Source: Acidimicrobiales bacterium (GTDB lineage Bacteria; Actinomycetota; Acidimicrobiia; Acidimicrobiales; MedAcidi-G1). From it: DNA of 64,000 bases. The notes beneath the pieces are model-generated. The model had not been told where the DNA came from, searched no databases, and saw only the letters and a program-made list of their open reading frames with translations. Position 1 is the first letter of the stretch; each line of letters begins with the position of its first letter. The translations under genes and the position numbers were made by a program. Location: the NCBI GenBank assembly GCA_030747595.1, contig JASLKK010000005.1, positions 124,001-188,000 of the forward strand, in the 5' to 3' direction. Below are positions 5,978 to 29,513 of the stretch, piece by piece.

Positions 5978-6232
5978 TCAGCCCTTGCGGCGCTGGCCGT
6001 ACCGGCGCTCGAAGCGCTCGACGCGGCCGGCGGTGTCCACGATCTTCATCGTGCCGGTGAAGAACGGGTGGCTGGCCGACGAGATCTCAACCTTGACCAG
6101 CGGGTACTCCACGCCGTCGTCCAGGGTGATCACGTCGTCGGTCTCAACCGTCGAACGGATCACGAAGTTGGTGCCCTCGGAAAGGTCCTGAAAGACCACG
6201 GGGCGATAGTTCGGGTGGATGTCCTGCTTCAT
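5978..6232 (-). CDS. rpmE: 50S ribosomal protein L31, type B (zinc-free)
   Basis: Large-subunit protein at the subunit interface. The 84 residues from MKQDIHPNYRPVVF to YGQRRKG match bL31 and contain no cysteine at all, so this is the C- (type B, YkgM-like) form without the zinc-binding CXXC pairs. The start was chosen by homology to L31; the frame is open about 80 codons upstream through the rho stop region but that part looks non-coding. It lies 95 nt after rho, the usual neighbourhood of the primary rpmE. Confidence 0.94.
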   Translation of the reverse strand: MKQDIHPNYRPVVFQDLSEGTNFVIRSTVETDDVITLDDGVEYPLVKVEISSASHPFFTGTMKIVDTAGRVERFERRYGQRRKG

Positions 6233-6327
6233 AACTCGTCCAGTCTGCGGTGCGGTCGGGGGTTCGGCAACCCGCGTGACGGGTCGCCTTTGGGTATCAG
6301 GTTCGGGTGTCGGATCCGGATACCCGT

Positions 6328-8061
6328 TCAGTCGCCCATGCTCGGTCCCTTGGCGATCTCGACCAGGAACTCTTCGTTGTTGTTGAAGGTCTTGAGTCGG
6401 TCGATGAGAAGTTCTAGACCGGCCGCCGCACCGCTGCCGTCGTTGGCCAGGCCGTTGAGCACCCGCCGCAGCTTCCACACCTGGTTCAGCTGCTGGCGTT
6501 CGAACAGGAGTTCTTCGTGCCGGGTCGACGAGGCGTCCACGTCAATGGCCGGATAGATCCGGCGTTCGGCAATCCGACGATCCAGACGGAGCTCCATATT
6601 GCCGGTGCCCTTGAACTCCTCGAAGATCACCTCGTCCATCTTGGAGCCCGTGTCGACCAGCGCCGTGGCCAGGACGGTCAGCGAACCGCCCTCCTCTAGG
6701 TTCCGAGCCGCACCGAAGAACCGCTTGGGCGGATAGAGCGCACCGCTGTCCACGCCACCGGACATGATCCGACCGGTAGCCGGGGCAGCCAGGTTGTAGG
6801 CCCTGGACAGTCGGGTGATCCCGTCCAAGACGATCACCACGTCGTCGCCGTACTCCACCATGCGCTTGGCCCGCTCGATGGTGACCTCGGCCAACTGGGT
6901 GTGCTCATCGCTGGGACGATCGAACGTGGATCCAACCACCTCGCCGCGCTGCAACCAGCGCTTCATATCGGTGACCTCCTCGGGACGCTCGTCGACCAGC
7001 AGGACGATGAGCTTCACCTCGGGATGGTTGGTCTCTATGGACCGCACGATCGACTTCATGATCGTGGTCTTTCCCGCCTTGGGGGGAGACACGATCATGC
7101 CGCGCTGGCCCTTGCCGATCGGCGAGAGCAGGTCGATGATGCGGGCCGTCATGTTGGTCGGATCGCCGTCGACCTCCATGCGGAGCTTCTCGTCGGGGAA
7201 CAGCGGGGTGAGATCCTCGAACTTGGGTCGGCTCTTGGCCAACTCGGGATCTCGTCCGTTGACTTTGTCGATACGCAACAGAGCCGGGTTCTTCTCGCTG
7301 CGGTTGGCCGGTCGGGATGCACCGACCAGGTGGTCTCCCCGGCGCAGGCTGAACTGGCGGACCTGCTTGACCGAGATGTAGGCGTCTTTCTTGGACGGCT
7401 TGTAGCCGCCGGTCCGGAGGAAGCCGTAGCCCTCGTCACGGAGGTCAATGTGACCCTCGACCTCGACGGGCTCACCGTCCCAGACCTCTTCGGGGCCACT
7501 CGACTGGTCACGCTCGCGACCCCGGCGGCGGCGGCGGCGGTTACCCGGGTCGGCGGTGTCCCCTTGTCCGTCGCGGTTGTGACCACCCTGACGGTCACGA
7601 TTCTGGCCACCCTGACGGTCGCGGTTATGACCACCCTGACGGTCACGATTCTGGCCACCCTGACCACGACCACCGTCACGATCCGACTTCTGGTCGCCAG
7701 AGCGGTCAGTGTCGGCTTCCGTGCTGGTTTCTGCGTTGGCTTCTGCGCTGGCATCCGAGTCGGCGGACTGATCACCATCGGTGCCAACTGCCTCCTCGGC
7801 CTCGGCAGCCACCTCCCACTCGGCCAGCGGCTCCTCCGCAGACTCCTCAGCAGGTGCCACAGGCTCGGTGGCAACGGTAGGAGGCCGTCCACCGTTGGAG
7901 GACGAACCGTTGCCTCCGCCGGACAGATCCAGGATCAGGTCGACGATCTCAGCCTTGCGGGCACGCGAACCGGGCTTGCCGCCCAGCGCAGTGGCGATCG
8001 TCGTCAGTTCGTCGCGGTCCTTGCTTTCCAGCGTTCCGCGTTCCAGTTGGGTGGAGTCCAT
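6328..8061 (-). CDS. rho: Transcription termination factor Rho with low-complexity insertion
   Basis: Hexameric RNA-dependent ATPase that ends transcription. Residues 1-45 are a Rho_N domain. About 45-190 is an acidic then Arg/Asp/Asn/Gly-rich insertion containing four copies of NRDRQGG(Q/H). Then comes the RNA-binding domain ([20 protein letters not shown]), Walker [13 protein letters not shown], Walker [25 protein letters not shown], and a C-terminal NNEEFL. The total of 577 aa is much longer than the 419 of E. coli, as in other actinobacteria. The ATG at 8061 gives the standard start MDSTQLERG; the frame is open for 71 codons upstream, but that stretch forms hairpins and looks like leader. 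Confidence 0.95.
7562..7665 (-). repeat. 24-nt tandem repeats inside rho
   Basis: About four 24-nt units, visible also as a 48-nt higher-order repeat in which units alternate between two variants. They encode NRDRQGGQ / NRDRQGGH in the Rho insertion. Imperfect third positions indicate an old expansion under protein-level selection. Confidence 0.85.
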
Positions 8062-18907: not shown

Positions 18908-19678
18908 ATGATCGAATTCAAGAACGTCTCGGTGACCTACCGGGGCGGGGTCAGGGCACTGCGCCACGTCGACCTGACGATCGACGACGGCGAGTTCGTC
19001 GTCGTGGTCGGGCTTTCGGGCGCGGGCAAGAGCACGTTGCTCCGGGCCATGAACGGCCTCGTACCAACCACCGAAGGGTCGATCACCGTCGGCGGCACCG
19101 AGGTGGTGGGTGCCCGCAGCGCCGAGTTGCGCGACATTCGGTCGCGCATCGGAATGATCTTCCAGACGTTCAACCTCGTGCACCGCACGTCGGTGGTGAA
19201 CAACGTCCTGATGGGACGCCTAGCAGAGGTCCCGGCCTGGCGATCCACGCTCGGGCTCTGGCCAGCCGACGACCGGGAGGCCGCCATGGTGGCCCTCGAG
19301 CGGGTAGGCATCGTGGAGAAGGCTTATGTCCGGGCCGCTGACCTGTCCGGTGGCCAGCAACAGCGCGTGGGTATCGCCCGGGCGCTCGCCCAGGAGCCGT
19401 CGGTGATGCTGGCCGACGAACCGGTGGCCGCCCTGGATCCGGTAACCAGCCGCCAGGTGATGGGCGACCTCCAGCGCATCAACCGGGATCTCGGCATCAC
19501 CACGCTGATCAACCTCCACTTCCTGGACCTGGCTCGCGAGTACGGGCGGCGCCTGGTCGGCCTTCGGGAGGGCGAGATCGTTTTCGACGGCGACATCGAC
19601 GACGTGACCGACGAGACCTTCCTCGAGATCTACGGCCGGGCCATCACCGACGACGATCTGAAGGCGTCCGGCGGGTGA
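18908..19678 (+). CDS. phnC: Phosphonate-type ABC transporter ATP-binding protein
   Basis: ATPase of the uptake system. Walker A GLSGAGKSTLLRAMNG (residues 37-52), Q-loop FQTFNLVHR, signature LSGGQQQRVGIARAL, Walker B VMLADEPVAALDP, switch His in NLHFLDLA. It is 256 aa, as expected for PhnC. Its stop overlaps the next gene's GTG start (GTGA). The 56-nt gap after phnD contains GCCCCG and CGGGGC segments that could pair. Confidence 0.93.
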   Translation: MIEFKNVSVTYRGGVRALRHVDLTIDDGEFVVVVGLSGAGKSTLLRAMNGLVPTTEGSITVGGTEVVGARSAELRDIRSRIGMIFQTFNLVHRTSVVNNVLMGRLAEVPAWRSTLGLWPADDREAAMVALERVGIVEKAYVRAADLSGGQQQRVGIARALAQEPSVMLADEPVAALDPVTSRQVMGDLQRINRDLGITTLINLHFLDLAREYGRRLVGLREGEIVFDGDIDDVTDETFLEIYGRAITDDDLKASGG

Positions 19679-20514
19679 GCCCGCCACCGGAAACCGGGCG
19701 AGTCGACAACAGGGTCGCCAGTCGCAAAACGACTTCCTCCCGACCCACCCCGCCACGAGTCCGACCACGGACCTGGGTCATGGCCGCCGCGGTGGCGGCC
19801 TACACCGTGGCGGCCGGACGCACGGTCGGATTCAACCCGTCCACCTTCTGGCAGGTCTGGTCCAATCCGCTGTGGGAGAAGTTCTGGCCCATCCCTTGGG
19901 ACTGGGTCCTGGACCGACACAACGTGATCGAACCGCTGATCGAGACGTTCCAGATCGCCATCGTGTCGACAATCCTGGGTTGCGGACTGGCTCTCCCAGT
20001 AGCGCTCGCCATGTCGCCACTGACCTCGCCCAACCGAGTGGTGCTCGTGGTAACCCGGTCGATCATGAACGTGGTGCGGGCCGTACCGGACCTGTTCTGG
20101 GCCAAGTTGTTGGTCACCGCAGTGGGTATCGGGGCCTTCGCCGGGTCCTGGGCCCTATCGGTGTTCTCACTGGCCGTCATGGTGAAGCTTTTCAGCGAAA
20201 CCGTCGATGGGGCCGATCCCCGGCCATTGGAGGCCGCCCGGGCCGCTGGCGGTCGCCACATGCCGGTGGTACGAACCGGCGTGCTACCCACCGTGCTTCC
20301 GGAGTACGTGGCCTACGGGCTCTACGTGTTCGAACTGAACATCCGAGCCTCCCTGGTCCTCGGGCTGGTTGGGGCCGGCGGTATCGGACGAGTGGTGGAG
20401 GCTCAACGGCAGTACTTCAGGTTCGACCGTGTGCTGGGCGTGTTGGTCATCGTGTTCGTGGTGGTGTTCGTGATCGAGCAGGTCAGTGTGGCCATCAGAA
20501 AGCGACTGGTCTGA
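19675..20514 (+). CDS. phnE: Phosphonate-type ABC transporter permease (first PhnE)
   Basis: Inner-membrane permease of 279 aa with a GTG start overlapping the phnC stop. Hydrophobic segments are separated by the EAA-like loop DGADPRPLEAARAAGGRHMPVVRTG, followed by LNIRASLVLGLVGAGGIG, both typical of PhnE. A basic, Pro-rich N-terminal tail of about 25 residues precedes the first helix. It probably forms a heterodimer with the next gene product. Confidence 0.9.
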   Translation: MSPPPETGRVDNRVASRKTTSSRPTPPRVRPRTWVMAAAVAAYTVAAGRTVGFNPSTFWQVWSNPLWEKFWPIPWDWVLDRHNVIEPLIETFQIAIVSTILGCGLALPVALAMSPLTSPNRVVLVVTRSIMNVVRAVPDLFWAKLLVTAVGIGAFAGSWALSVFSLAVMVKLFSETVDGADPRPLEAARAAGGRHMPVVRTGVLPTVLPEYVAYGLYVFELNIRASLVLGLVGAGGIGRVVEAQRQYFRFDRVLGVLVIVFVVVFVIEQVSVAIRKRLV

Positions 20515-20578
20515 GGTGGCCTCCAACCCGCCTCCCGCCGATGGCGGCTCCCCACCACTGGCGGAGGGTTCCTCGTTG

Positions 20579-21463
20579 ATGGAGGCCTACCCGTCCGACG
20601 GCGGTAGGCCGGTGGCACCGCGGCGAGCAGGCCGTCGGTGGGGGCTGGCCGCTCTGGTAGTCGTTGCCGTGGTCTGGTCGATCTCCGGCCTCGAGGTCAC
20701 CATGGACCGCCTCCTCAGTGCCCCAGGCAACGCGTGGGATGTGTTCCGTCGGATGGCGCCGCCCGCGTTCGGTGAGGCCATCGACCGGGGTGTACCCGGC
20801 AAGGTCCTCGAGTCGGTGCACATCGCCTGGATCGGCACGATGATCGGAGCGGTCTTCTCGCTGCCCTTGGCCTTCCTGGCCGCCGGGAACGTCTCCCCCG
20901 CGTGGATCCGAACCCCGGTCCGACAGCTCTTTAACGTCATCCGGGCCGTTCCCGAACTGATTCTGGCCGTCATACTCATCCCGATCACAGGCCTTGGCCC
21001 GTGGGCCGGGGCCCTAGCCATCGGCATTCACTCCGTAGGGACGCTTGGTAAGTGGGCTACCGAGGCCATCGAGGGCGTGGATCCCGGACCACTGGAGGCC
21101 GTGGCCGCTACCGGGGGGCGGTGGGTGTCAGGCATGCGGTGGGGGGTACTCCCCCAGATACTTCCGGTGGTCACGTCGCAGTGGTTATTCCGCTTCGAGA
21201 TCAATGTCCGGGCTTCCGCGGTGCTGGGCATGATCGGCGCTGGTGGGGTGGGCTCGGAACTGGTGTCCCAACTGGTGTTTCGGAACTTCCCGGCGGTAGG
21301 CGCCGTGCTGGCCATGACCATCGTCGTGGTGCTGGCAATCGACACCGCCTCGGCCGCCGTCCGGCGACGGATCATCCGGGGAGCGGTCCCAGGGGCCGAC
21401 GACGGCGAGGCTGACCGCAACGCTGCGGTGTTGACCGACCTGACCGGGATACGTACCCCTTGA
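20579..21463 (+). CDS. phnE: Phosphonate-type ABC transporter permease (second PhnE)
   Basis: Second permease, 294 aa from the ATG at 20579, which has GGAGGG 11 nt upstream. A GTG at 20516, just after the previous stop, would add 21 residues and cannot be excluded. Seen: FNVIRAVPELILAVILIPI, EAIEGVDPGPLEAVAATGGR (EAA loop) and EINVRASAVLGMIGAGGVG. Two PhnE genes after one PhnC is a known arrangement. The stop overlaps the next start. Confidence 0.88.
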   Translation: MEAYPSDGGRPVAPRRAGRRWGLAALVVVAVVWSISGLEVTMDRLLSAPGNAWDVFRRMAPPAFGEAIDRGVPGKVLESVHIAWIGTMIGAVFSLPLAFLAAGNVSPAWIRTPVRQLFNVIRAVPELILAVILIPITGLGPWAGALAIGIHSVGTLGKWATEAIEGVDPGPLEAVAATGGRWVSGMRWGVLPQILPVVTSQWLFRFEINVRASAVLGMIGAGGVGSELVSQLVFRNFPAVGAVLAMTIVVVLAIDTASAAVRRRIIRGAVPGADDGEADRNAAVLTDLTGIRTP

Positions 21464-22389
21464 CCGCCGCTGGACGGGCCACCATTGGGCTAGACGTTGG
21501 CGGCACCAAGGCCGCTGCGGTGCTCGTCGACCCATTGACGGGCACGGTCCTAGATCGAGAACGGGCGTCCAGTGCCGGATCGGCCGAGAATCTCGTGACC
21601 ACCCTGACCGATCTCGTCGACACCCTCCGGGAGCGCTCGACCGGTCTTCACGTGGAGGTCGGCGCCGTAGGTCTGGGCATCGCCGGCCTGGTGGACCGTG
21701 ACGGCATGGTCCGGTGGTCGCCCAACCTGCCGTCAGCCGTAGGCCATCCGGTGGCCGCCGATCTGGCAGGCGGTAGCGGGCTCCCGGTGGCCGCCACCAA
21801 CGACGCTACGGCAGCCACCCTGGCCGAGTCCCGCCTCGGTGCCGGCCGGGACTGCGACGACGTCGCTCTGGTCACCCTCGGCACCGGCATCGGCGCCGGG
21901 TTCGTGGTCGATGGACGACTATTGCGGGGTGCCCACGGGTTCGCTGGCGAACCGGGCCATATGGTGGTGGATCCGGGCGGCCCCGAGCATACGACTGGTC
22001 AGCGGGGCCCATGGGAGGCCTTAGCGTCAGGCAACGCCCTGGGTCGGATGGCCGCCGAGGCCGGCTTCGACTCGGGGACCGCGGTGGTGGCCGCCATGGC
22101 CGCTGAAGACTCCAGAGCGGCCGAGGTGTTTGACCGGTGGTGCCGGGAGGTGGCACAGGGGCTGGCCAACCTGGTGGTCGTGCTGGATAGTCGACGGATC
22201 GTGCTGGGCGGTGGTCTCGTCGAGGTCGGCGAGCCGCTGCGGCTCGGTGTGGCGTCGTGGCTGGAACAGTTGACCCCGGGTGCCGACTCGCGACCTCCCG
22301 TCGAGGTGGTGCTAGCCGAGCTGGGGTCCGACGCCGGTGCACTGGGTGCCGGCCTACTTGCCGGCGACCTCCTGGCGGGCGACGACTGA
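21460..22389 (+). CDS. ROK-family protein (sugar kinase-like) without the zinc cysteines
   Basis: 309-residue actin-fold protein. ATP-site residues IGLDVGGTKAAAVLVD at the N-terminus, VAATNDATAATLAE with the catalytic Asp, LGTGIGAGFVVDG, and EPGHMVVDPGG carrying the ROK ExGH. The usual CxCGxxGCxE zinc motif is replaced by HTTGQRGPWE, with all three Cys gone. TTG start overlapping the phnE stop, so it is cotranslated with the transporter. Possible roles: glucokinase-like kinase, or a kinase for the imported substrate. Confidence 0.82.
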   Translation: MTAAGRATIGLDVGGTKAAAVLVDPLTGTVLDRERASSAGSAENLVTTLTDLVDTLRERSTGLHVEVGAVGLGIAGLVDRDGMVRWSPNLPSAVGHPVAADLAGGSGLPVAATNDATAATLAESRLGAGRDCDDVALVTLGTGIGAGFVVDGRLLRGAHGFAGEPGHMVVDPGGPEHTTGQRGPWEALASGNALGRMAAEAGFDSGTAVVAAMAAEDSRAAEVFDRWCREVAQGLANLVVVLDSRRIVLGGGLVEVGEPLRLGVASWLEQLTPGADSRPPVEVVLAELGSDAGALGAGLLAGDLLAGDD

Positions 22390-22421
22390 CAACGGCCCCG
22401 ATACCCGGTGGACGCTCCCGA

Positions 22422-23147
22422 CTACAGGTGGGCGTCTAGCAGGGCGAGGGTGCGGGTCCAAGCGAGGGCGGCCGCGTCGGCGTCGTAGGTGCCGAACGGG
22501 TCCTCCTCGTTGGCGAACGGATGCCCCGTTCCGTCGTAGACGTGGAAGGTCACGTCCCGACCCATGGTCCGGAGATCGTCACCCAGGGCCATCACGTCTT
22601 CGATCGGGAAGAAGTCGTCGTGTTCGGCCATGTGGCCCTCGACCACGGCCGTCAACCCGGACCAGTCGGGTGCATCGTCTCCCAGCGGGGCGCCGTAGTA
22701 CGGGGCGGCACAGGCCACCCGGTCGCCCTCGAGGGCGGCGATCAGCAGGGTGAGCATTCCGCCCATGCAGAAGCCGACCACCCCGACGGCGTCGCCGTTG
22801 GTTGCGTCGTGGTCCAGCAGGAAGTCGATAGCCGCCGACATGTCCCGAGCGGCCCGGTCCGGCGGTAGCGAGGTCATCAGCTCCCCGGCCTTGTCCATCT
22901 CCGTGTGCTCGGCAAACTCGCCGTGATAGAGGTCGGGGGCGAGAGCCACGAAGCCCTCACCGGCGAGGCGATCACAGACCCCCCGGATCTGGGGCACCAG
23001 GCCCCACCATTCCTGGATCACAAGCACCCCGGGCCCCGAGCCCGACGCTGGAACGGCCAGGTAGCCCCCAGCCGTCGGCCCGTTCGCCACGAACTCCACT
23101 GGCTCGCCGGCACGCTCCGGGTCCCGGTCACTCTGAGTATCGATCAT
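22422..23147 (-). CDS. Dienelactone hydrolase-family protein
   Basis: Alpha/beta hydrolase of 241 aa. Nucleophile Cys in GFCMGG about residue 122, Asp in the EGHMAEHDDFFP region, His in YDGTGHPFANE: the Cys-His-Asp triad of the dienelactone hydrolase family. QEWWGLVPQIRGVCDRLA is also typical. The start at 23147 is supported by AGAAGGAG upstream. It lies 5 nt after the NrtR-like gene, so the two form an operon. The natural substrate is unknown; many relatives hydrolyse esters or lactones. Confidence 0.88.
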   Translation of the reverse strand: MIDTQSDRDPERAGEPVEFVANGPTAGGYLAVPASGSGPGVLVIQEWWGLVPQIRGVCDRLAGEGFVALAPDLYHGEFAEHTEMDKAGELMTSLPPDRAARDMSAAIDFLLDHDATNGDAVGVVGFCMGGMLTLLIAALEGDRVACAAPYYGAPLGDDAPDWSGLTAVVEGHMAEHDDFFPIEDVMALGDDLRTMGRDVTFHVYDGTGHPFANEEDPFGTYDADAAALAWTRTLALLDAHL

Positions 23148-23152
23148 CGGTC

Positions 23153-24028
23153 CTACTCCTTCTCGCCCGCCTGCTCGTCCGGTTCCTGATTTTCGGATTC
23201 GACCAGCCACGACGGATAGTCATCACTGGGTCGGCTTCGGGGGGGCGGCATTGCCCTCGACTCCGATCTCATGGCCAGGAACGGCTGCTCGAGCCTTGAG
23301 ACTTCACCAGCCGAGAAGAGGGCCGCCGGCCGTCCTCTGGAGCCACTCGGGTCGGTGGTCCGCCCAAGGTCCCGCACGAAGTCCGGCTCGGACCGCACCT
23401 TTCGCTGGAAGTTGCCCTGATCGAACTCGGTCCCCCACACCGCCTCGTACACCCGCCGTAGTTGCCTGATGGTGAACTCGGGAGGACAGAAGCGGCTGGC
23501 CTCCGTCGAGTACTCCAACCTCGACCTGGCCCGGTCGACAGCATCCAGGACGATGGTCCGGTGGTCGAAGGCCAGCTTCCGCTCCTCCCGCTCGATCTCG
23601 ACCACGGGAACGAGAGCGGCCTCAGCCGCATCGCCACCACCGGCCAGGTCCCCGACGTCGGCCTGGATCGTCCAGTAGGCGACGGTCACCACCCGCATCC
23701 TCGGATCCCGATCCGGCTCCCCGTAGGTCCGGAGTTGCTCGAGCTTGTCGGGTTTCAGGCCGAGCTTCGTCTCCTCCGCCAACTCCCGACGCGCAGCTTC
23801 CCTAGGAGCCTCATCTTCACGGACGAACCCACCGGGTAGCGCCCAGCGATCCTTGAACGGCGGCTCGCCCCGCCGCACCAGAACCACCTGGAGCACGTCG
23901 TCGACGATGGTGAACACCACCACATCAACCGTGACCGCGAACGGAGGGTACGCGGAAGGGTCGTAATCGCTCAGTGACGAATCACCTGAGCCATCACCGT
24001 CCGAGATATTTATGTCAGAGGTTGACAT
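23153..24028 (-). CDS. NrtR-like Nudix transcriptional regulator
   Basis: 291 aa: an acidic N-terminal tail of about 25 residues, a Nudix domain (residues 30-170), then a winged helix (FTIRQLRRVYEAVWGTEFDQ, NFQRKV, GRPAALF) as in NrtR. NrtR proteins sense ADP-ribose and repress NAD synthesis or sugar genes. The Nudix box GFVREDEAPREAARRELAEE keeps all catalytic Glu residues, with Lys for the late Gly, so some hydrolysis is possible. A tail of about 60 residues beyond the winged helix is unusual. It is divergent from the vWA/ARPP-1 pair, which it may control. AGGAG precedes the start at 11 nt. Confidence 0.85.
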   Translation of the reverse strand: MSTSDINISDGDGSGDSSLSDYDPSAYPPFAVTVDVVVFTIVDDVLQVVLVRRGEPPFKDRWALPGGFVREDEAPREAARRELAEETKLGLKPDKLEQLRTYGEPDRDPRMRVVTVAYWTIQADVGDLAGGGDAAEAALVPVVEIEREERKLAFDHRTIVLDAVDRARSRLEYSTEASRFCPPEFTIRQLRRVYEAVWGTEFDQGNFQRKVRSEPDFVRDLGRTTDPSGSRGRPAALFSAGEVSRLEQPFLAMRSESRAMPPPRSRPSDDYPSWLVESENQEPDEQAGEKE

Positions 24029-24050
24029 TATTGTCTATTCTCCTATATAG
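24022..24050 (+). promoter_or_regulatory. Consensus promoter with palindrome, driving the vWA/ARPP-1 pair
   Basis: TTGACA at 24022-24027 and TATATA at 24044-24049 with a 16-nt spacer: an almost ideal sigma-A promoter, and the most A+T-rich spot noticed in the window. CTATATAG at 24043-24050 is a perfect 8-bp palindrome over the -10. The -35 overlaps the NrtR-like start codon, so a regulator bound here would affect both directions. Operator identity is inference. Confidence 0.6.
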
Positions 24051-24187
24051 TGATACTGACACAATATAGAGCATCAACACACACAGCATCAACATGGACT
24101 GTCACAGGGGCTCGGTAAACAGGTGTCAGAAACGGGAACCCGGACCGGGGCCCGTCCAGGAACAGGGAAGAGAGACAGGACACACAC

Positions 24188-24997
24188 ATGACGACGAATG
24201 AAACCTACATCGCACGGCTCCGCAAGTTGATCGCCGAGGCACCCGACGGCCTCGACGTCGGCCCACTGGAGGTCGCCCTGGCATCAGCCGAGGCCGCCCT
24301 CGCCAGTTCGGACTCCACCGGTGACCGCACCAAGATCTGGTTCCTACTGGACCGCTCCGGTTCCATGGGCTACCTGACCGACGACGTGATCGGTGGGTTC
24401 AACGAGTTCCTGAAGCAGCAGAAGGCCCAGCCGGGGAAGGCCCGGATGTCGGTCGTCCTGTTCGACGGCCAGAATCCCTACGAGGTGGTGGTCGACGGCC
24501 GCCGCATCGCCGAGGTTCCGGCGTTGACGCCCGCCATCTACCAGGCCCGAAGCTCCACGCCCCTGTTCGACGCCCTGGGCACCCTCCTGGGAAAAGCCGA
24601 CCAGAGGATCGCCCAGCGTGCCGAGACCGGCCGGAAGGCAGAGGACCAGCTGGTCCTCATCTTCACCGACGGCCACGAGAACGCCTCGAGACGGTACGAC
24701 CGGGCCCGGATCTTCGAAATGATCAAGGACCGTCAGGACACCGGCAACTGGACCTTCGTATTCATGGGCGCCAACCAGGACTCCTACGCGGCGGGCGGTG
24801 GCGTCGGTTTCGGCGACGGCAACATCCAGGACTTCGCCGCCACCCCGGCCAGCGTGCGCGACTCCTTCTCGGAGTTCACACGTAGCACGGTTGCTTACCG
24901 GGGCAAGCCCAGGCGCCAGCGGATGCACGACCGGCACGACTTCTTCGAGGGTCAGAAGCTCGCCGAACAGGCTCTCAGGGAGCAAGACCGGAACTGA
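24188..24997 (+). CDS. von Willebrand factor A domain protein
   Basis: 269-residue cytosolic protein. After a helical N-terminus of about 50 residues comes a vWA fold: the MIDAS motif WFLLDRSGSMG about residues 52-62, the second-loop Thr in SSTPLFDALG, and LIFTDGHENAS. It should bind a divalent metal and a protein partner. There is no signal peptide. It is followed by the ARPP-1-like gene, with a hairpin between them, and is divergent from an NrtR-like regulator. Known vWA relatives in NAD/ADP-ribose-linked gene clusters suggest a scaffolding role; the partner is unknown. Confidence 0.88.
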   Translation: MTTNETYIARLRKLIAEAPDGLDVGPLEVALASAEAALASSDSTGDRTKIWFLLDRSGSMGYLTDDVIGGFNEFLKQQKAQPGKARMSVVLFDGQNPYEVVVDGRRIAEVPALTPAIYQARSSTPLFDALGTLLGKADQRIAQRAETGRKAEDQLVLIFTDGHENASRRYDRARIFEMIKDRQDTGNWTFVFMGANQDSYAAGGGVGFGDGNIQDFAATPASVRDSFSEFTRSTVAYRGKPRRQRMHDRHDFFEGQKLAEQALREQDRN

Positions 24998-25017
24998 TCG
25001 GGCCTCCCCGAGGGCAG

Positions 25018-25045
25018 GCCGGTCGGGTCGACGGACCCGGCCGGC
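25018..25045 (+). terminator. GC-rich hairpin between vWA and ARPP-1 genes
   Basis: 12-bp stem (one G-U pair) with a 4-nt GACG loop and no U tract. It could reduce read-through or process the message so the two genes are made in unequal amounts. Confidence 0.5.
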
Positions 25046-25112
25046 GGCCTTCCCTCTCCCATCACATCACTAGCCAAACAACAGACCAGCACAACCGACA
25101 AGAGGAGACACC

Positions 25113-26012
25113 TTGACCATCACCCCGCTCGACTCCGCCCCCATCGGGCCGCCCATCACCCGCGGTGGGATCTCGATCTACCCCGTCTACCTACCCGGCA
25201 ACGCCCTGCCCCCCATCGGCACCGGACGGGAATCCGGCCTGACCATCGACGAGCTACCCGACGCCCAGGTCCCCCACCTGGTGGTCCACAACCCCACCGA
25301 CCGACCCATCCTGATCGTCGAGGGCGAGCAGTTCGTGGGCGGACGCCAGAACCGCACCGCCAACGCCAGCGTGCTGGTGCCAGCCGGCGAAACGCGAGAG
25401 ATCCCCGTCTCGTGCCTCGAGGTAGGACGCTGGGGTGAGCATCGGGCCTTCGAGCACGCCCCGACCTTCACCCCCCGCCGGGTGCGCCGAACCAAGCAGC
25501 GCGAGGTGGCCCGGAGCATGGCCGAGGCCGGCGTGCGGTCCGGTGACCAGCAGCAAGTCTGGCAAGCCATCCAGGTCGAAATGAACAGCATGGCTGCGCC
25601 GTCGAGCACCGGAGCGGTGGCAGATGCCGACCAGGTCTTCGCACGAGACGGACACCGCCAAGCTGCCGTAGACGAGTTGGTGACCCGTGGACCGCTCACC
25701 GGTCAGTGCGGCATCATCGTGGCCCACGGCTGGCGGGCCATAGCTGCCGAGGTGTTCGGCTCTCCTGAACTGCTGGCCGCCCACTGGGCTCCGTTGGTGC
25801 GTTCGCACCTTCTGGAGCACCCCACAGCCACCGGTCAACGGTCGGCCACCGGCGCCATGAAGCTGCTTCGGCGCTTCGCCGAAGCCAAGTCAGTGGACTC
25901 CCCTGGCCTCGGCCTAGGCACCGAACACCACGTGAACGCCGAGCGGGTCACGGGACAGGCCCTGACCTTGGACGGAGCGTTAGTTCACGCAGGGGTCTTC
26001 CGGCGGGGCTGA
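25113..26012 (+). CDS. ARPP-1-like domain protein
   Basis: 299 aa, TTG start with AGGAGA upstream. It fits the family I know as ARPP-1 (ARG and rhodanese/phosphatase-associated protein): GGISIYPVYLPG at the N-terminus, LVVHNPTDRPILIVEGEQFVGGRQNRT about residues 63-90, VPAGETREIPVSCLEVGRW, and a later GPLTGQCGIIVAH. The family is predicted to take part in ADP-ribose/NAD-linked conflict or repair systems; no biochemical role is established as far as I know. It sits with a vWA gene and an NrtR-like regulator, which fits that theme, and is followed by a strong terminator. Confidence 0.72.
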   Translation: MTITPLDSAPIGPPITRGGISIYPVYLPGNALPPIGTGRESGLTIDELPDAQVPHLVVHNPTDRPILIVEGEQFVGGRQNRTANASVLVPAGETREIPVSCLEVGRWGEHRAFEHAPTFTPRRVRRTKQREVARSMAEAGVRSGDQQQVWQAIQVEMNSMAAPSSTGAVADADQVFARDGHRQAAVDELVTRGPLTGQCGIIVAHGWRAIAAEVFGSPELLAAHWAPLVRSHLLEHPTATGQRSATGAMKLLRRFAEAKSVDSPGLGLGTEHHVNAERVTGQALTLDGALVHAGVFRRG

Positions 26013-26020
26013 CTCCATCA

Positions 26021-26048
26021 GGCCCCACCGGTATCGGCCGGTGGGGCC
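26021..26048 (+). terminator. Terminator hairpin after the ARPP-1 gene
   Basis: Perfect 11-bp stem (GGCCCCACCGG / CCGGTGGGGCC) with a 6-nt loop, 9 nt after the stop. No U tract follows, as is common in actinobacteria. Confidence 0.7.
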
Positions 26049-26062
26049 ATGGAGCGGTCCGG

Positions 26063-26068
26063 TAACCT
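26063..26068 (+). promoter_or_regulatory. -10 hexamer of the tRNA-Arg gene
   Basis: TAACCT, 11 nt before the first base of the tRNA. Confidence 0.45.
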
Positions 26069-26079
26069 GACCCGTTCCA

Positions 26080-26154
26080 GCCCCTGTAGCTCAGCGGATA
26101 GAGCATCGGCTTCCGGAGCCGTGTGCACAGGTTCGAGTCCTGTCAGGGGCGCCA
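26080..26154 (+). tRNA. tRNA-Arg (anticodon CCG)
   Basis: Acceptor stem GCCCCTG pairs with CAGGGGC. D arm GCTC..GAGC. Anticodon loop TTCCGGA holds CCG, which reads CGG. T arm CAGG-TTCGAGT-CCTG. The discriminator is G and CCA is encoded (26152-26154). The anticodon stem has one T-T mismatch at its outer pair. Confidence 0.95.
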
Positions 26155-26197
26155 GACGCCACGAAGAGCCAGACACGGTGACGACCGGATTCACCCC

Positions 26198-26497
26198 ATG
26201 CCTGATGCAACACGCGACGAACTCACGGCCACCTTTTCCGAGTTCGCCCGGAGTGCCGACATGATCGCCTTCCCCGTCCACTGGCACCTGGTCAACGAAC
26301 GTCGGGGCACGGTGGTCGCCCAGTCCGGTAACCGTCTGCGAGACCCCGGCAAAGGCCATATCCACGAACCCTGGAACCTGACTGTGCTTACGTACGGGGG
26401 CAACGGCCGCTGAGCAGGCCAGCGGGACATCTACGACGTGACCCATTTCGGCAACGAGGTCATGGCCTGGGTGGCCGCACGCGACGTCTATTCCTGA
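26198..26497 (+). pseudogene. SnoaL-like/NTF2-fold gene remnant with an in-frame TGA
   Basis: 100 codons from the ATG at 26198 to TGA at 26495 read like the C-terminal part of a SnoaL-like protein, but codon 72 (26411-26413) is TGA. Relatives have Trp at this point (GDGxW followed by EDIYN; here GNGR-stop-AGQRDIYD), so TGG to TGA is the likely change. The N-terminal helix and first strands of the fold are missing, so the gene is also truncated at the 5' side, next to the tRNA. A sequencing error is possible for the stop, but not for the truncation. Confidence 0.65.
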
Positions 26498-26529
26498 ACC
26501 TAACCCCCAAGCCCAGAAGAGACCGTGGG

Positions 26530-26535
26530 TAGGGT
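26530..26535 (+). promoter_or_regulatory. -10 hexamer of the FrhB-like gene (leaderless)
   Basis: TAGGGT with 8 nt to the ATG at 26544. Confidence 0.5.
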
Positions 26536-26543
26536 GACCGGCG

Positions 26544-27698
26544 ATGGCCACACCCCGCAAGAAGTGGACCTTCCAGTGGAAGGAGCTCTACGACGAGGTC
26601 ATCACCTCCGGCCTCTGCACGGGCTGCGCCGGTTGTGTCATCGCCTGCCCGCATGACGTCATCGGCTACGAGCACGCACCGGGGCAGTACAAGCCGTTCC
26701 ATCTGGAGGACGATCTGGGCCTCGATGACTGCGGCCACGGCCAAAAGGGCTGCACGTCGTGCACCCGGGCATGCCCACGTTTTCGAGACTGGGAAACCGA
26801 AGCCGATCAGCACCTCTTCGCCCGAGCCCGCAAGCCCGATGAGATGTCCGGTGTCTACAAGGACGTCCTGCTCACCCGGGCGAGTGACGCCGGCGTCCAC
26901 CAGATGGGCCAAGACGGCGGCCTGGTGTCAGCCATCCTCATCTGGTGCCTAGACAACGGCATCATCGACGGCGCGCTGACCAGCCACCTCGAACCCGAGG
27001 GTCCTGACGGATCCAGCAGTTGGAAGGCCGTCCCCGCGGTGGCCACCGACCGTGCCTCGGTGCTGGCCGGGGCGGGCAGCCGCTACACCTACTCGGCCAA
27101 CACATTGGCCATGCCCGAAGCTCTGGATCGTGGCCTCTCCTCGCTCGCGCTGGTCGGCATGAGCTGCCAGACATCCATCGGGCCGGTGATGTGGCACCGC
27201 AAGGTGGGCAAGGCCGGCAAGCCGATCAAGCTCAATATCGGTCTGCTGTGCTCCAAGTCGTTCGACGACGCCATCTTCGAGGAGCTCTTCTGGGCCAAGT
27301 ACCGCCTCCGGAAGGAGGACATGGTCAAGATGAACATCAAGGGTGTCTTCCAGATCTGGATGCGGAACGGCGACTACCACGAGATCAACCTCAAGGAGTG
27401 CCACGCCTGGACCCGTGAGGGCTGCACCCATTGTCCGGACTTCGCCGCCGAACACGCCGACATCTCCACCGGCGGGATCGGCGAGAACAACGACTGGACG
27501 CTGACCATCGTGCGGACCGAACTGGGCCGTCAGGTCATCATGGGGATGCTGGCCGACGGCGTCATCGAGGGACGGCCGGGCGACAGCGACCCCGGGGCCA
27601 TCGCCCTCATGCACAAGTTGGCGGCCAAGAGCCGAGACCGGTGGCCGGATTGGGCCAATCCAACGGCCCGGGTCGGACTACCCGTCCGGGCAGTCTGA
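26544..27698 (+). CDS. Coenzyme F420 hydrogenase/dehydrogenase beta-subunit (FrhB) family protein
   Basis: 384 aa. N-terminal ferredoxin-like part with GLCTGCAGCVIACPHDVIG about residues 23-41 and a second cluster GCTSCTRACPRF, i.e. Cys for two Fe-S clusters. Then an FrhB_FdhB N and C domain with QDGGLVSAILIWCL, NIGLLCSKSF (flavin-site region) and EGCTHCPDFAAEHADISTGGIG, typical of the family's C-terminus. Such proteins move electrons between Fe-S clusters, FAD and F420 or another donor. It stands alone here, with no hydrogenase or formate dehydrogenase subunit nearby, so its partner is unknown. Confidence 0.88.
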   Translation: MATPRKKWTFQWKELYDEVITSGLCTGCAGCVIACPHDVIGYEHAPGQYKPFHLEDDLGLDDCGHGQKGCTSCTRACPRFRDWETEADQHLFARARKPDEMSGVYKDVLLTRASDAGVHQMGQDGGLVSAILIWCLDNGIIDGALTSHLEPEGPDGSSSWKAVPAVATDRASVLAGAGSRYTYSANTLAMPEALDRGLSSLALVGMSCQTSIGPVMWHRKVGKAGKPIKLNIGLLCSKSFDDAIFEELFWAKYRLRKEDMVKMNIKGVFQIWMRNGDYHEINLKECHAWTREGCTHCPDFAAEHADISTGGIGENNDWTLTIVRTELGRQVIMGMLADGVIEGRPGDSDPGAIALMHKLAAKSRDRWPDWANPTARVGLPVRAV

Positions 27699-27721
27699 AA
27701 CGAACCGGCTAAGCCTGAGCG

Positions 27722-27744
27722 GGGCCCGACGGATCGACGGGCCC
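27722..27744. terminator. Bidirectional terminator hairpin
   Basis: GGGCCCG / CGGGCCC 7-bp stem with a 9-nt loop, between the convergent FrhB-like gene and the small lipoprotein gene. Confidence 0.55.
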
Positions 27745-27756
27745 GCGGGGGTCGGG

Positions 27757-28116
27757 TCAGGCGCCGCAGTCGTCGGAGATGTCGACGAACCAGCCGTAGT
27801 GCTCAACCAGCATGTCCCGGGTCACGGTGTCCCGCTGGTCGTCGATGAAGGCATCCAACTCACGGAACTTCTCGAAGGACACCTCGGACTGGATGCCGTC
27901 CAGCACGCAGCCACAGAACGCCTTGGCCTTGACCGAACCCAGGTCGTCGTTGGCCTCCACGCAGGCGGCCACGCCCTCACGCTCCCCTAGACCGTCGCCG
28001 GAAGCGTCGGCCTGATCCTCCCAGGACACCGGCTCACCGGAGGCCACGCACGCCGTGGCCACCAGGACGACGGCCACCAGGGGCAGGAGGCGACGGATTC
28101 GAGAGGAGCTCTTCAC
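27757..28116 (-). CDS. Small secreted lipoprotein, unknown function
   Basis: 119 aa from the GTG at 28116. Signal peptide with RR near the N-terminus and lipobox VATAC. The mature part has four Cys (AACVEAND, KAFCGCVLDGI, DDCGA), likely forming two disulfides, and is otherwise helical and acidic. The CGC..DGI pattern resembles small periplasmic proteins of unknown role in related bacteria. A -10 hexamer overlaps the stop of the upstream uracil-DNA glycosylase gene. Confidence 0.75.
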   Translation of the reverse strand: MKSSSRIRRLLPLVAVVLVATACVASGEPVSWEDQADASGDGLGEREGVAACVEANDDLGSVKAKAFCGCVLDGIQSEVSFEKFRELDAFIDDQRDTVTRDMLVEHYGWFVDISDDCGA

Positions 28117-28123
28117 GGCCCAG

Positions 28124-28129
28124 AGGCTA
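28124..28129 (-). promoter_or_regulatory. -10 hexamer of the small lipoprotein (leaderless)
   Basis: TAGCCT with 7 nt to the GTG at 28116. Its TAG is also the stop codon of the glycosylase gene. Confidence 0.5.
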
Positions 28130-28852
28130 CCGGCGGTCGCCGGTTGACGACCCCGGTCCACCGGCGCCGGCCAACTCGATCGCCCGGACCAGCACAGCGT
28201 CGAACATGGGCTCGGTGAGCCGACCGGTGAACGTGTTCTGTTGGCTCACGTGGTACGAGCACAAGATCGTGCGCCCATCGTCGAGCGGTGCCTCCACCCC
28301 GTGCCCGAATGTCGGCCGGGGTCGTAGGCCAAACTCGGACGCCGCGGCCACGTACCCAATCTGACCGAGGACCACCACGACCTTCACCGCCGCCAAGGCG
28401 GTCACCTCACGCTCGAAGAACGACCGACACGCCGCCTTCTCGTCGGGAGTGGGCTTGTTGGCCGGCGGCGCGCACTTCACCGGCGCCGTGATGAACACGT
28501 CGGTCAACGCCAAACCGTCGTCGATGCCCACCGCTTCGGCCTGATTGGCCAAACCCACCCGATGCAGGGCGGCGAACAGGAAGTCCCCCGACCGGTCACC
28601 GGTGAACACTCGGCCGGTCCGGTTGGCACCGTGGGCCGCCGGCGCCAGACCCACGATCAAGATCCGGGCCTCCGGGTCCCCGAACCCGGGCACACCACGA
28701 CCCCAGTACTCCTGATCCCGGTAGGCGGCACGCTTTTCGGCAGCCACCTGCTCGCGCCACGAGACCAGACGTGGGCAGGCTCGACAGGACACCACCTCAT
28801 CGTGGACGGCCCGGAGGGTCGACGCGCCTTGGTCGGAAACAGGTCGGGTCAC
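28127..28852 (-). CDS. Uracil-DNA glycosylase, family 5 (UdgB type)
   Basis: Removes uracil and other deaminated bases from DNA. 241 aa from the GTG at 28852. Seen: CRACPRLVSWRE near the N-terminus with the first Fe-S Cys pair, active-site motif GLAPAAHGANRTGRVFTGD about residue 67, VKCAPPANKPTPDE, and CSYHVSQQNTFTGRLT, all characteristic of family 5, in which the usual catalytic polar residue is absent from motif 1. The start is set by a -10 element that overlaps the divergent phosphatase promoter. Confidence 0.92.
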   Translation of the reverse strand: MTRPVSDQGASTLRAVHDEVVSCRACPRLVSWREQVAAEKRAAYRDQEYWGRGVPGFGDPEARILIVGLAPAAHGANRTGRVFTGDRSGDFLFAALHRVGLANQAEAVGIDDGLALTDVFITAPVKCAPPANKPTPDEKAACRSFFEREVTALAAVKVVVVLGQIGYVAAASEFGLRPRPTFGHGVEAPLDDGRTILCSYHVSQQNTFTGRLTEPMFDAVLVRAIELAGAGGPGSSTGDRR

Positions 28853-28858
28853 AGGGTC

Positions 28859-28868
28859 AGAGTAGGTT
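28859..28868. promoter_or_regulatory. Overlapping divergent -10 hexamers
   Basis: Minus strand TACTCT (28859-28864) lies 6 nt from the glycosylase GTG. Plus strand TAGGTT (28863-28868) lies 9 nt from the phosphatase ATG. They share two bases, so only one polymerase can melt the site at a time. The two start codons are only 25 bp apart. Confidence 0.55.
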
Positions 28869-28877
28869 CGGCGACCG

Positions 28878-29513
28878 ATGCCCCCCACCCTCGTGCTCTA
28901 CGTTCGACACGGACGCACGCCAACCACCGGCGCCCGCCTTCCCGGCCGCGCCCCCGGTCTGCACCTGTCCGACGAAGGCCATGCCCAGGCCGAGGCCGTG
29001 GCGGCCGCCATCGCCGGGCGCGACGGAACCGGACAGCAGGTGGCCGCCGTGTACGCCTCGCCCATGGAACGGACCCGGGAGACCGCGGCACCCATCGCCC
29101 GGGCCCTCGGCCTACGGGTCCGCACGGCACCAGGCCTCAACGAGTGCGACTTCGGCCGCTGGACCGGTCGACGCCTCAAAGAACTCATGAAACTCAAGGC
29201 GTGGGCCACCGTCCAACGCCAGCCGTCGGCCTTCCGTTTTCCGAGCGGCGAGTCGTTCGCCGAGATGCAGGCCCGTATCACCGGCCAGGTGGCCGACCTG
29301 GTGGCCCGCCATCCCGGCGAGACCATCGTCTGCGTCTCGCACGCTGATCCCATCAAGGCGGCCCTCGCCCAAGCCGTGGGCACCCCACTGGACCTCTTCC
29401 AGCGGCTGGTCGTTGGACCGTGCTCGGTGAGCGCCGTGCTACACACCAAGGAGCGACCCGTCGTTTTGACCATCAACACCACCGGCGACTTGAAAGGCCT
29501 GACGCCATCATGA
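28878..29513 (+). CDS. Histidine phosphatase family protein (MSMEG_4193-like)
   Basis: 211 aa phosphoglycerate-mutase-fold phosphatase: YVRHGRTPTT at residues 8-17 with the phosphohistidine, SPMERTRETA, NECDFGRWTG, and VCVSHADPIK with the second His. It matches the actinobacterial family TIGR03848. In this phylum the family is found with DUF3090 and SCO1664-family genes, as here. The substrate is unknown. The stop overlaps a 40-codon ORF (ATGA). Confidence 0.9.
   Translation: MPPTLVLYVRHGRTPTTGARLPGRAPGLHLSDEGHAQAEAVAAAIAGRDGTGQQVAAVYASPMERTRETAAPIARALGLRVRTAPGLNECDFGRWTGRRLKELMKLKAWATVQRQPSAFRFPSGESFAEMQARITGQVADLVARHPGETIVCVSHADPIKAALAQAVGTPLDLFQRLVVGPCSVSAVLHTKERPVVLTINTTGDLKGLTPS

Follow-up and report, generated by a model that had tools for sequence, protein, structure and literature searches.

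A compact NrtR, vWA and ARPP-1 cassette without a detectable ARG gene at a tRNA-Arg site of an Acidimicrobiales genome

Which process is served by a gene set that joins an NrtR-type regulator, a vWA protein and an ARPP-1 protein, and how could it operate without ADP-ribosylglycohydrolase (ARG, PF03747)? This question is raised by a locus within a 64,000-nucleotide stretch of an Acidimicrobiales genome, which as a whole is called the window in this study. A sequence-only reading of the locus had proposed a NAD/ADP-ribose-linked system made up of these three genes and a hydrolase gene. We analyzed the locus by profile searches, structure modeling and comparison to related genomes.

Gene content and exchange at the tRNA-Arg site

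Pfam profile searches, including those for NUDIX, VWA and ARPP-1, confirmed the families that had been assigned to the four protein-coding genes. The ARPP-1 match is full-length, covering positions 4-297 of 297. The genes and the boundary of the site are as follows.

22422-23147 (open reading frame as listed 22422-23210), minus strand: dienelactone-hydrolase-like gene (DLH; Pfam DLH 7e-48), backbone flank
23153-24028, minus strand: NrtR-type regulator of 291 aa with a Nudix domain, a winged helix and a C-terminal tail of ~50 aa (NUDIX 2e-19, NrtR_WHD 6e-13)
24188-24997, plus strand: vWA protein of 269 aa with complete MIDAS and without an ARG domain (VWA 7e-8)
25113-26012, plus strand: ARPP-1 (PF20208, DUF6569) protein of 299 aa (ARPP-1 5e-63, 213.6 bits)
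26080-26154, plus strand: tRNA-Arg(ccg), right-hand boundary of the insertion site

The hydrolase gene does not belong to the system as had been proposed. DLH was rejected as a part of the cassette and regarded as a backbone gene because it is retained at the empty sites of the genus; it also had no counterpart in those ARPP-1 loci that were fetched from outside the family. Its start is probably the ATG at 23147, 5 nt beyond the NrtR stop codon, and both genes may be co-transcribed. DLH (and ROK) flank the site to one side, whereas tRNA-Arg(ccg) and an FrhB-like gene flank it to the other. Ahead of the ROK kinase gene the window contains an ABC transporter set at 18908-21463 (one ATPase, two permeases; of the phosphonate type judging by eye), and G504 and G510 have similar genes next to this site as well. 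Beyond FrhB the window encodes a histidine phosphatase (28878-29513), a separate gene that G507, G508 and G510 also have. The window's cassette itself contains no coupled phosphatase, no ADP-ribosyltransferase domain was found by Pfam among the flanking genes scanned (21460-29513), and no NAD-synthesis gene was detected among the neighboring genes. PADLOC reported only a weak, uninformative Nudix match (PDC-S07) for the locus.

The window's assembly is MAG-like (2.46 Mb, 84 contigs, 96% complete), its nearest named relatives are the Acidimicrobiales MAGs bin95s and BH16, and nearly all relatives compared are draft genomes. A genome-wide search identified a single ARPP-1 copy. Within the genus ARPP-1 was found in 5 out of 17 genomes, in all five, the window included, as NrtR divergent from vWA-ARPP-1. 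In these species all three reading frames are uninterrupted and well conserved (53-98% identity to the window). Four of the species (window, G507, G508, G510) carry the compact cassette at the DLH/tRNA-Arg site; in G511 it is located on a different contig, next to a gene for a phosphatase. This site is empty in five genomes of the genus (G503, G512, G513, G516 and G511). Two further genomes, G504 and G514, have a cassette in inverted orientation between DLH and tRNA-Arg. Its NrtR gene adjoins the tRNA and is accompanied by genes for an ARG-vWA fusion and a phosphatase-ARG fusion; ARPP-1 is lacking. The contig of G515 is shorter and includes the tRNA side only; it has NrtR and ARG-vWA in the same inverted order, together with a second ARG gene. 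NrtR, vWA and ARPP-1 form an accessory, swappable cassette at one site.

The regulator and the shared promoter region

Both the Nudix domain and the NrtR winged helix are present in the regulator according to Pfam, and its best solved relatives include the Nudix and winged-helix protein 3gz5 and AraR (5bs6). Control of NAD-biosynthesis genes, another hallmark of the family, is not apparent from its neighbors, which are not NAD genes. Classification as a canonical NAD-regulating NrtR was rejected on this ground, on the score of 114 bits versus the NCBIfam NtrR cut-off of 400 bits, and on the position of the only other genomic copy of its putative operator (see below). As the sequence-only reading had noted, the Nudix box, judged by its sequence, retains its catalytic Glu residues. 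Both the window's NrtR and those of close relatives have the pattern GX5EX7REUXEE (K for the last G), which three distant members (L059, L061 and L067) have lost. The extra C-terminal tail, noted as well, is common mainly to NrtR proteins of compact cassettes.

The region between the divergent genes contains two promoter-like sites, with 0.3 expected from shuffling, and two putative operators.

24022-24051, plus strand: promoter-like site for vWA-ARPP-1, TTGACA(18)TATAGT, 11/12 matches
24092-24063, minus strand: opposing promoter-like site, TTGATG(18)TATATT
24013-24027: putative operator 1, TGTCA-N5-TGACA, TGTCAGAGGTTGACA, overlapping the -35 box of the vWA promoter and the NrtR start codon
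approximately 24043-24069: putative operator 2, CTATATAGTGATACTGACACAATATAG, an imperfect inverted repeat of 27 nt that extends across the -10 boxes of the two divergent sites

The near-consensus promoter that had been suggested for this region is represented by a promoter-like site with 11 of 12 matching positions, and promoter-like hexamers are similarly placed in most related intergenic regions. The dyad of operator 1 is retained in G507. In the whole genome the TGTCA-N5-TGACA dyad has only one further perfect copy, which lies within a ribosomal-protein gene. As this is a coding region, any NrtR regulon is probably local.

Putative operator 2 occupies the same position as TTATTG-N9-CAATAA dyads of the relatives, with a degenerate sequence in the window; its best match to the relatives' consensus is 12/16 (shuffle P 0.005). 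Among 39 intergenic regions of relatives the ATTG-N9-CAAT dyad occurred in 20 (shuffle maximum 4) and the TTATTG-N9-CAATAA dyad in 11 (shuffle maximum 1), both counts being inflated by relatedness. These dyads typically are located near the -10 box, and another site, half or full, lies close to the -35 box. An exact 19-mer of the relatives' dyad gave only 2 matches across all loci; the motif is a loose one. At the other end of the cassette, a perfect 11-bp terminator had been described at 26021-26048. The perfect 11-bp stem could be confirmed, but it lacks a T-run and was not called by the terminator scan. This hairpin is not retained in the relative G508.

Recurrence of the gene set and the absence of ARG

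NrtR_WHD gave 20 matches in a set of 46 genomes, of which 45 contain ARPP-1, and 9 of these matches were located within ~4 kb of ARPP-1, with well under 1 expected at random. NrtR was directly divergent from ARPP-1 within ~420 nt, measured between the edges of the profile matches, in 28 of 80 loci from named genomes. Members of the Actinomycetota, Acidobacteriota, Pseudomonadota and Rhodothermota share this arrangement. Hence, the gene set recurs in other genomes, and this recurrence supports the proposal of a NAD/ADP-ribose-linked set of ARPP-1, vWA protein and NrtR-like regulator. Of the grounds on which the sequence-only reading could have been refuted, neither a missing ARPP-1 match nor a lack of recurrence was borne out. 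The ARPP-1 tree mixes phyla; on its supported branches the Acidobacteriota require at least 7 changes. This mixing is compatible with transfer, for which it is weak evidence owing to MAG binning errors. Four loci titled Bifidobacterium breve (L225, L228, L229 and L232) are probably mislabelled metagenome bins, and those placed in the tree group with further actinobacterial MAGs.

Profile searches detected no ARG gene in the window's locus or in its genome, and none in G507 and G511. The three-gene form without ARG was also found in the more distant Acidimicrobiia L175, L219 and L227, with the ARPP-1 match of L219 in two pieces. G508, G510 and the genome of L174 carry ARG elsewhere. Thus, 6 out of 9 genomes with the three-gene form had no detectable ARG, each absence being provisional because these are draft genomes; in the window's case ARG could lie in the ~4% that is unassembled. 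In compact cassettes ARPP-1 is evidently maintained even where ARG is missing. A macro domain as a stand-in for ARG was rejected, since it is absent from the window's genome and occurs in only 2 of 13 genomes of the genus.

In the sister genera represented by G181 and G128, NrtR, ARG-vWA and ARPP-1 are found together. Moreover, L182 contains a natural ARPP-1-ARG fusion of 669 aa (6001-8010) behind a divergent NrtR, and in L192 ARPP-1 is fused to a truncated ARG (6001-7362), again behind a divergent NrtR. The co-occurrence in the sister genera and the L182 fusion suggest that ARPP-1 and ARG probably act in one process. The usual metal-binding motifs of ARG are GDALG and DDTQ. In the alignment the ARG domain of the ARG-vWA fusions shows GEALG and SDTQ, and because of this departure it may bind rather than cleave ADP-ribose.

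Across 59 ARPP-1 homologues the residues G71, G76, Q79, R81, N84, C101, E103, G105-R106-W107, R125, Q146, W150 and G200 are invariant. The structure model is confident (pLDDT 93.6, pTM 0.92) and gave no Foldseek match to PDB or viral models at E <= 0.001; a search of the ARPP-1 profile against PDB sequences yielded nothing significant. Our literature search yielded neither an experimental paper on ARPP-1/DUF6569 nor data on ligand binding or catalysis by an ARPP-1 protein. No ARPP-1 was found in phage records, and plasmids gave three weak matches only, of which the one examined (Pimelobacter) is located near ARG and a RecB-like nuclease.

In four actinobacterial loci a small NYN-like protein, a possible nuclease, is encoded beside or near ARPP-1 (L049:7448-8011, L054:2529-3128, L068:3606-4178 and L066:11757-12278); this neighbor is not named in the section of PMC9503650 on systems centered on ARG. 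In the actinobacterial loci L198, L201, L202 and L209 a sigma-factor-like gene (~190 aa, by eye) lies between NrtR and ARPP-1.

The MIDAS-containing vWA gene of the sequence-only reading was likewise verified, the residues D55, S57, S59, T124 and D161 being invariant in the vWA alignment. In the full cassettes of relatives, the vWA protein is fused to an ARG domain, which the window's protein lacks. Relatives of the vWA protein were found in 215 of 50,697 phage records, with 31-37% identity among the best, mostly in Streptomyces, Microbacterium and Pseudomonas phages (PHROG 7371, function unassigned). Neither ARPP-1 nor ARG is annotated near them in the two phages examined.

Proposed role and relation to known systems

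We propose, with a probability of about 0.5, that the locus is an accessory, exchangeable, ADP-ribose-responsive cassette that acts on ADP-ribosylated targets. Judged from the anatomy of the region and the motif, NrtR bound to dyads over the overlapping divergent promoters would repress both itself and vWA-ARPP-1. ADP-ribose or a derivative, rising upon phage-driven ADP-ribosylation or NAD breakdown, would bind the Nudix domain and free the DNA, as in characterized NrtR proteins. With its intact Nudix glutamates NrtR may slowly degrade its own inducer. The vWA protein may grip ADP-ribosylated or damaged client proteins via its Mg-dependent MIDAS site in a chaperone-like manner, and ARPP-1 may act on the ADP-ribose or ribose moiety via its cluster of Cys, Gln, Arg and Trp residues. 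In the compact form, ARPP-1 without ARG would cover part of the work done by ARG and phosphatase in full systems. That ARPP-1 is a new-fold enzyme which removes or captures ADP-ribose alone, and so replaces ARG, is a tentative and rather doubtful extension of this proposal. The genes, their recurrence, the exchange at the site, the absence of ARG, the dyads of relatives and the ARPP-1-ARG fusion were observed directly; ligand, repression, chaperone role, chemistry and any antiphage role or benefit of the cassette are inferred. Against the proposal, the window's operator is degenerate compared to the consensus of the relatives, and without ARG and an adjacent phosphatase (G511 excepted) the published substrate-release step is missing.

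The cassette might instead serve housekeeping NAD/ADP-ribose homeostasis or a stress response without any phage role, with NrtR reading NAD turnover and vWA-ARPP-1 detoxifying free ADP-ribose or reactive ribose sugars. Known NrtR proteins control NAD genes (PMC6800001), the Nudix catalytic residues are intact, and sugar chemistry is common to the ARPP contexts in the text of PMC9503650. Nevertheless, this explanation is unlikely in view of the lack of an adjoining NAD-synthesis gene, the location of the other dyad copy in a coding region, and the patchy distribution in the genus with replacement by a different cassette at a tRNA-flanked site, the pattern of an accessory locus.

The absence of ARG, also as the domain fused to vWA in sister genera, would be expected of a partly functional or dying remnant of an ARG-type system that has lost ARG and phosphatase. 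Open and well conserved genes in five species, and the same form without ARG in L175, L219 and L227, indicate stable forms rather than decay and render such a remnant improbable. Slightly less probable again is abortive defence, in which a rise of ADP-ribose during infection would make NrtR release ARPP-1 as a toxic effector. Predicted repressor control and an accessory, swappable nature at one site would fit this role. However, the ARPP-1 model has no structural match to solved toxins, and the L182 fusion to ARG, a deconjugating enzyme, suggests processing rather than killing.

If ARPP-1 indeed is a new-fold enzyme that replaces ARG, compact NrtR-vWA-ARPP-1 cassettes would be self-contained systems for reversal of ADP-ribosylation and rivals of ARG cassettes for one chromosomal slot. 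ARPP-1/DUF6569 is widespread, and in the form without ARG its only company is a predicted ligand-sensing repressor and a single chaperone-like protein, a minimal natural setting for finding its function. Cassettes with ARG and with ARPP-1 replace one another naturally at a single site and lend themselves to genetic comparison, and a reporter for the inducing metabolite could be built on the operator-like dyad.

The regulator resembles NrtR regulators of NAD metabolism (MsNrtR, PMC6800001; 3gz5) in its Nudix domain and NrtR winged helix, divergent layout and dyad operator. Characterized NrtR proteins regulate NAD genes (PMC6800001), whereas the window's regulator has no NAD-biosynthesis target. 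In MsNrtR the Nudix box is degenerate (RQUXEKXDU) and hydrolysis is lost with ADP-ribose sensing kept (PMC6800001); in the window's NrtR it is near-canonical. The mycobacterial operator is GTTTTCGA-N7-TCGAAAAC (PMC6800001), from which the window's dyads differ.

Section 3.8 of Iyer et al. 2022 (PMC9503650) describes host systems centered on ARG, proposed to reverse phage ADP-ribosylation, which also include regulators of the Nudix or WYL type, chaperones such as vWA proteins, phosphatases and ARPP. According to this text over 42% of the systems have a Nudix- or WYL-type one-component regulator and about 55% have a coupled phosphatase (rhodanese-phosphatase/DSP or other), the peptide-binding chaperone is a vWA, SseB or TY-Chap protein, and sugar chemistry unifies the ARPP contexts. 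Each component of the window's cassette has already been assigned there to predicted anti-ADP-ribosylation systems. Thus, the ADP-ribose link proposed from the sequence was right in kind, but the idea, considered uncharacterized, is already on record as a prediction. New are the exchange of cassettes at one site, the absence of ARG, and the recurrent divergent NrtR and ARPP-1 with a conserved operator-like dyad; the two-gene ARPP contexts in the text of PMC9503650 (HIRAN, WYL, PF01522) do not include this pair. A three-gene example without ARG may nevertheless be drawn in the figures or supplements of that paper.

Like the systems described in that text, the window's cassette has a Nudix-HTH regulator, a vWA protein with a predicted chaperone role and an ARPP protein, has no ADP-ribosyltransferase nearby, and is patchy and modular. 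Unlike them, it has neither ARG, at the locus or elsewhere in the genome, nor an adjacent phosphatase, which leaves ARPP-1 as the only candidate enzyme. In the full cassettes of relatives (G181 = L054, G128 = L057, G514 = L157, G515 = L161, G504 = L158) NrtR is divergent from vWA as in the window. There, vWA is fused to ARG, and a second ARG gene is present except at the G128 locus, phosphatase-fused in G181, G504 and G514. The alleles of the genus (G504, G514 and G515) lack ARPP-1 and are oriented opposite to the compact cassette; for G504 and G514 both flanking genes are those of the window's site. The window's cassette looks like a stripped-down relative of the predicted anti-ADP-ribosylation systems, minus their defining enzyme.
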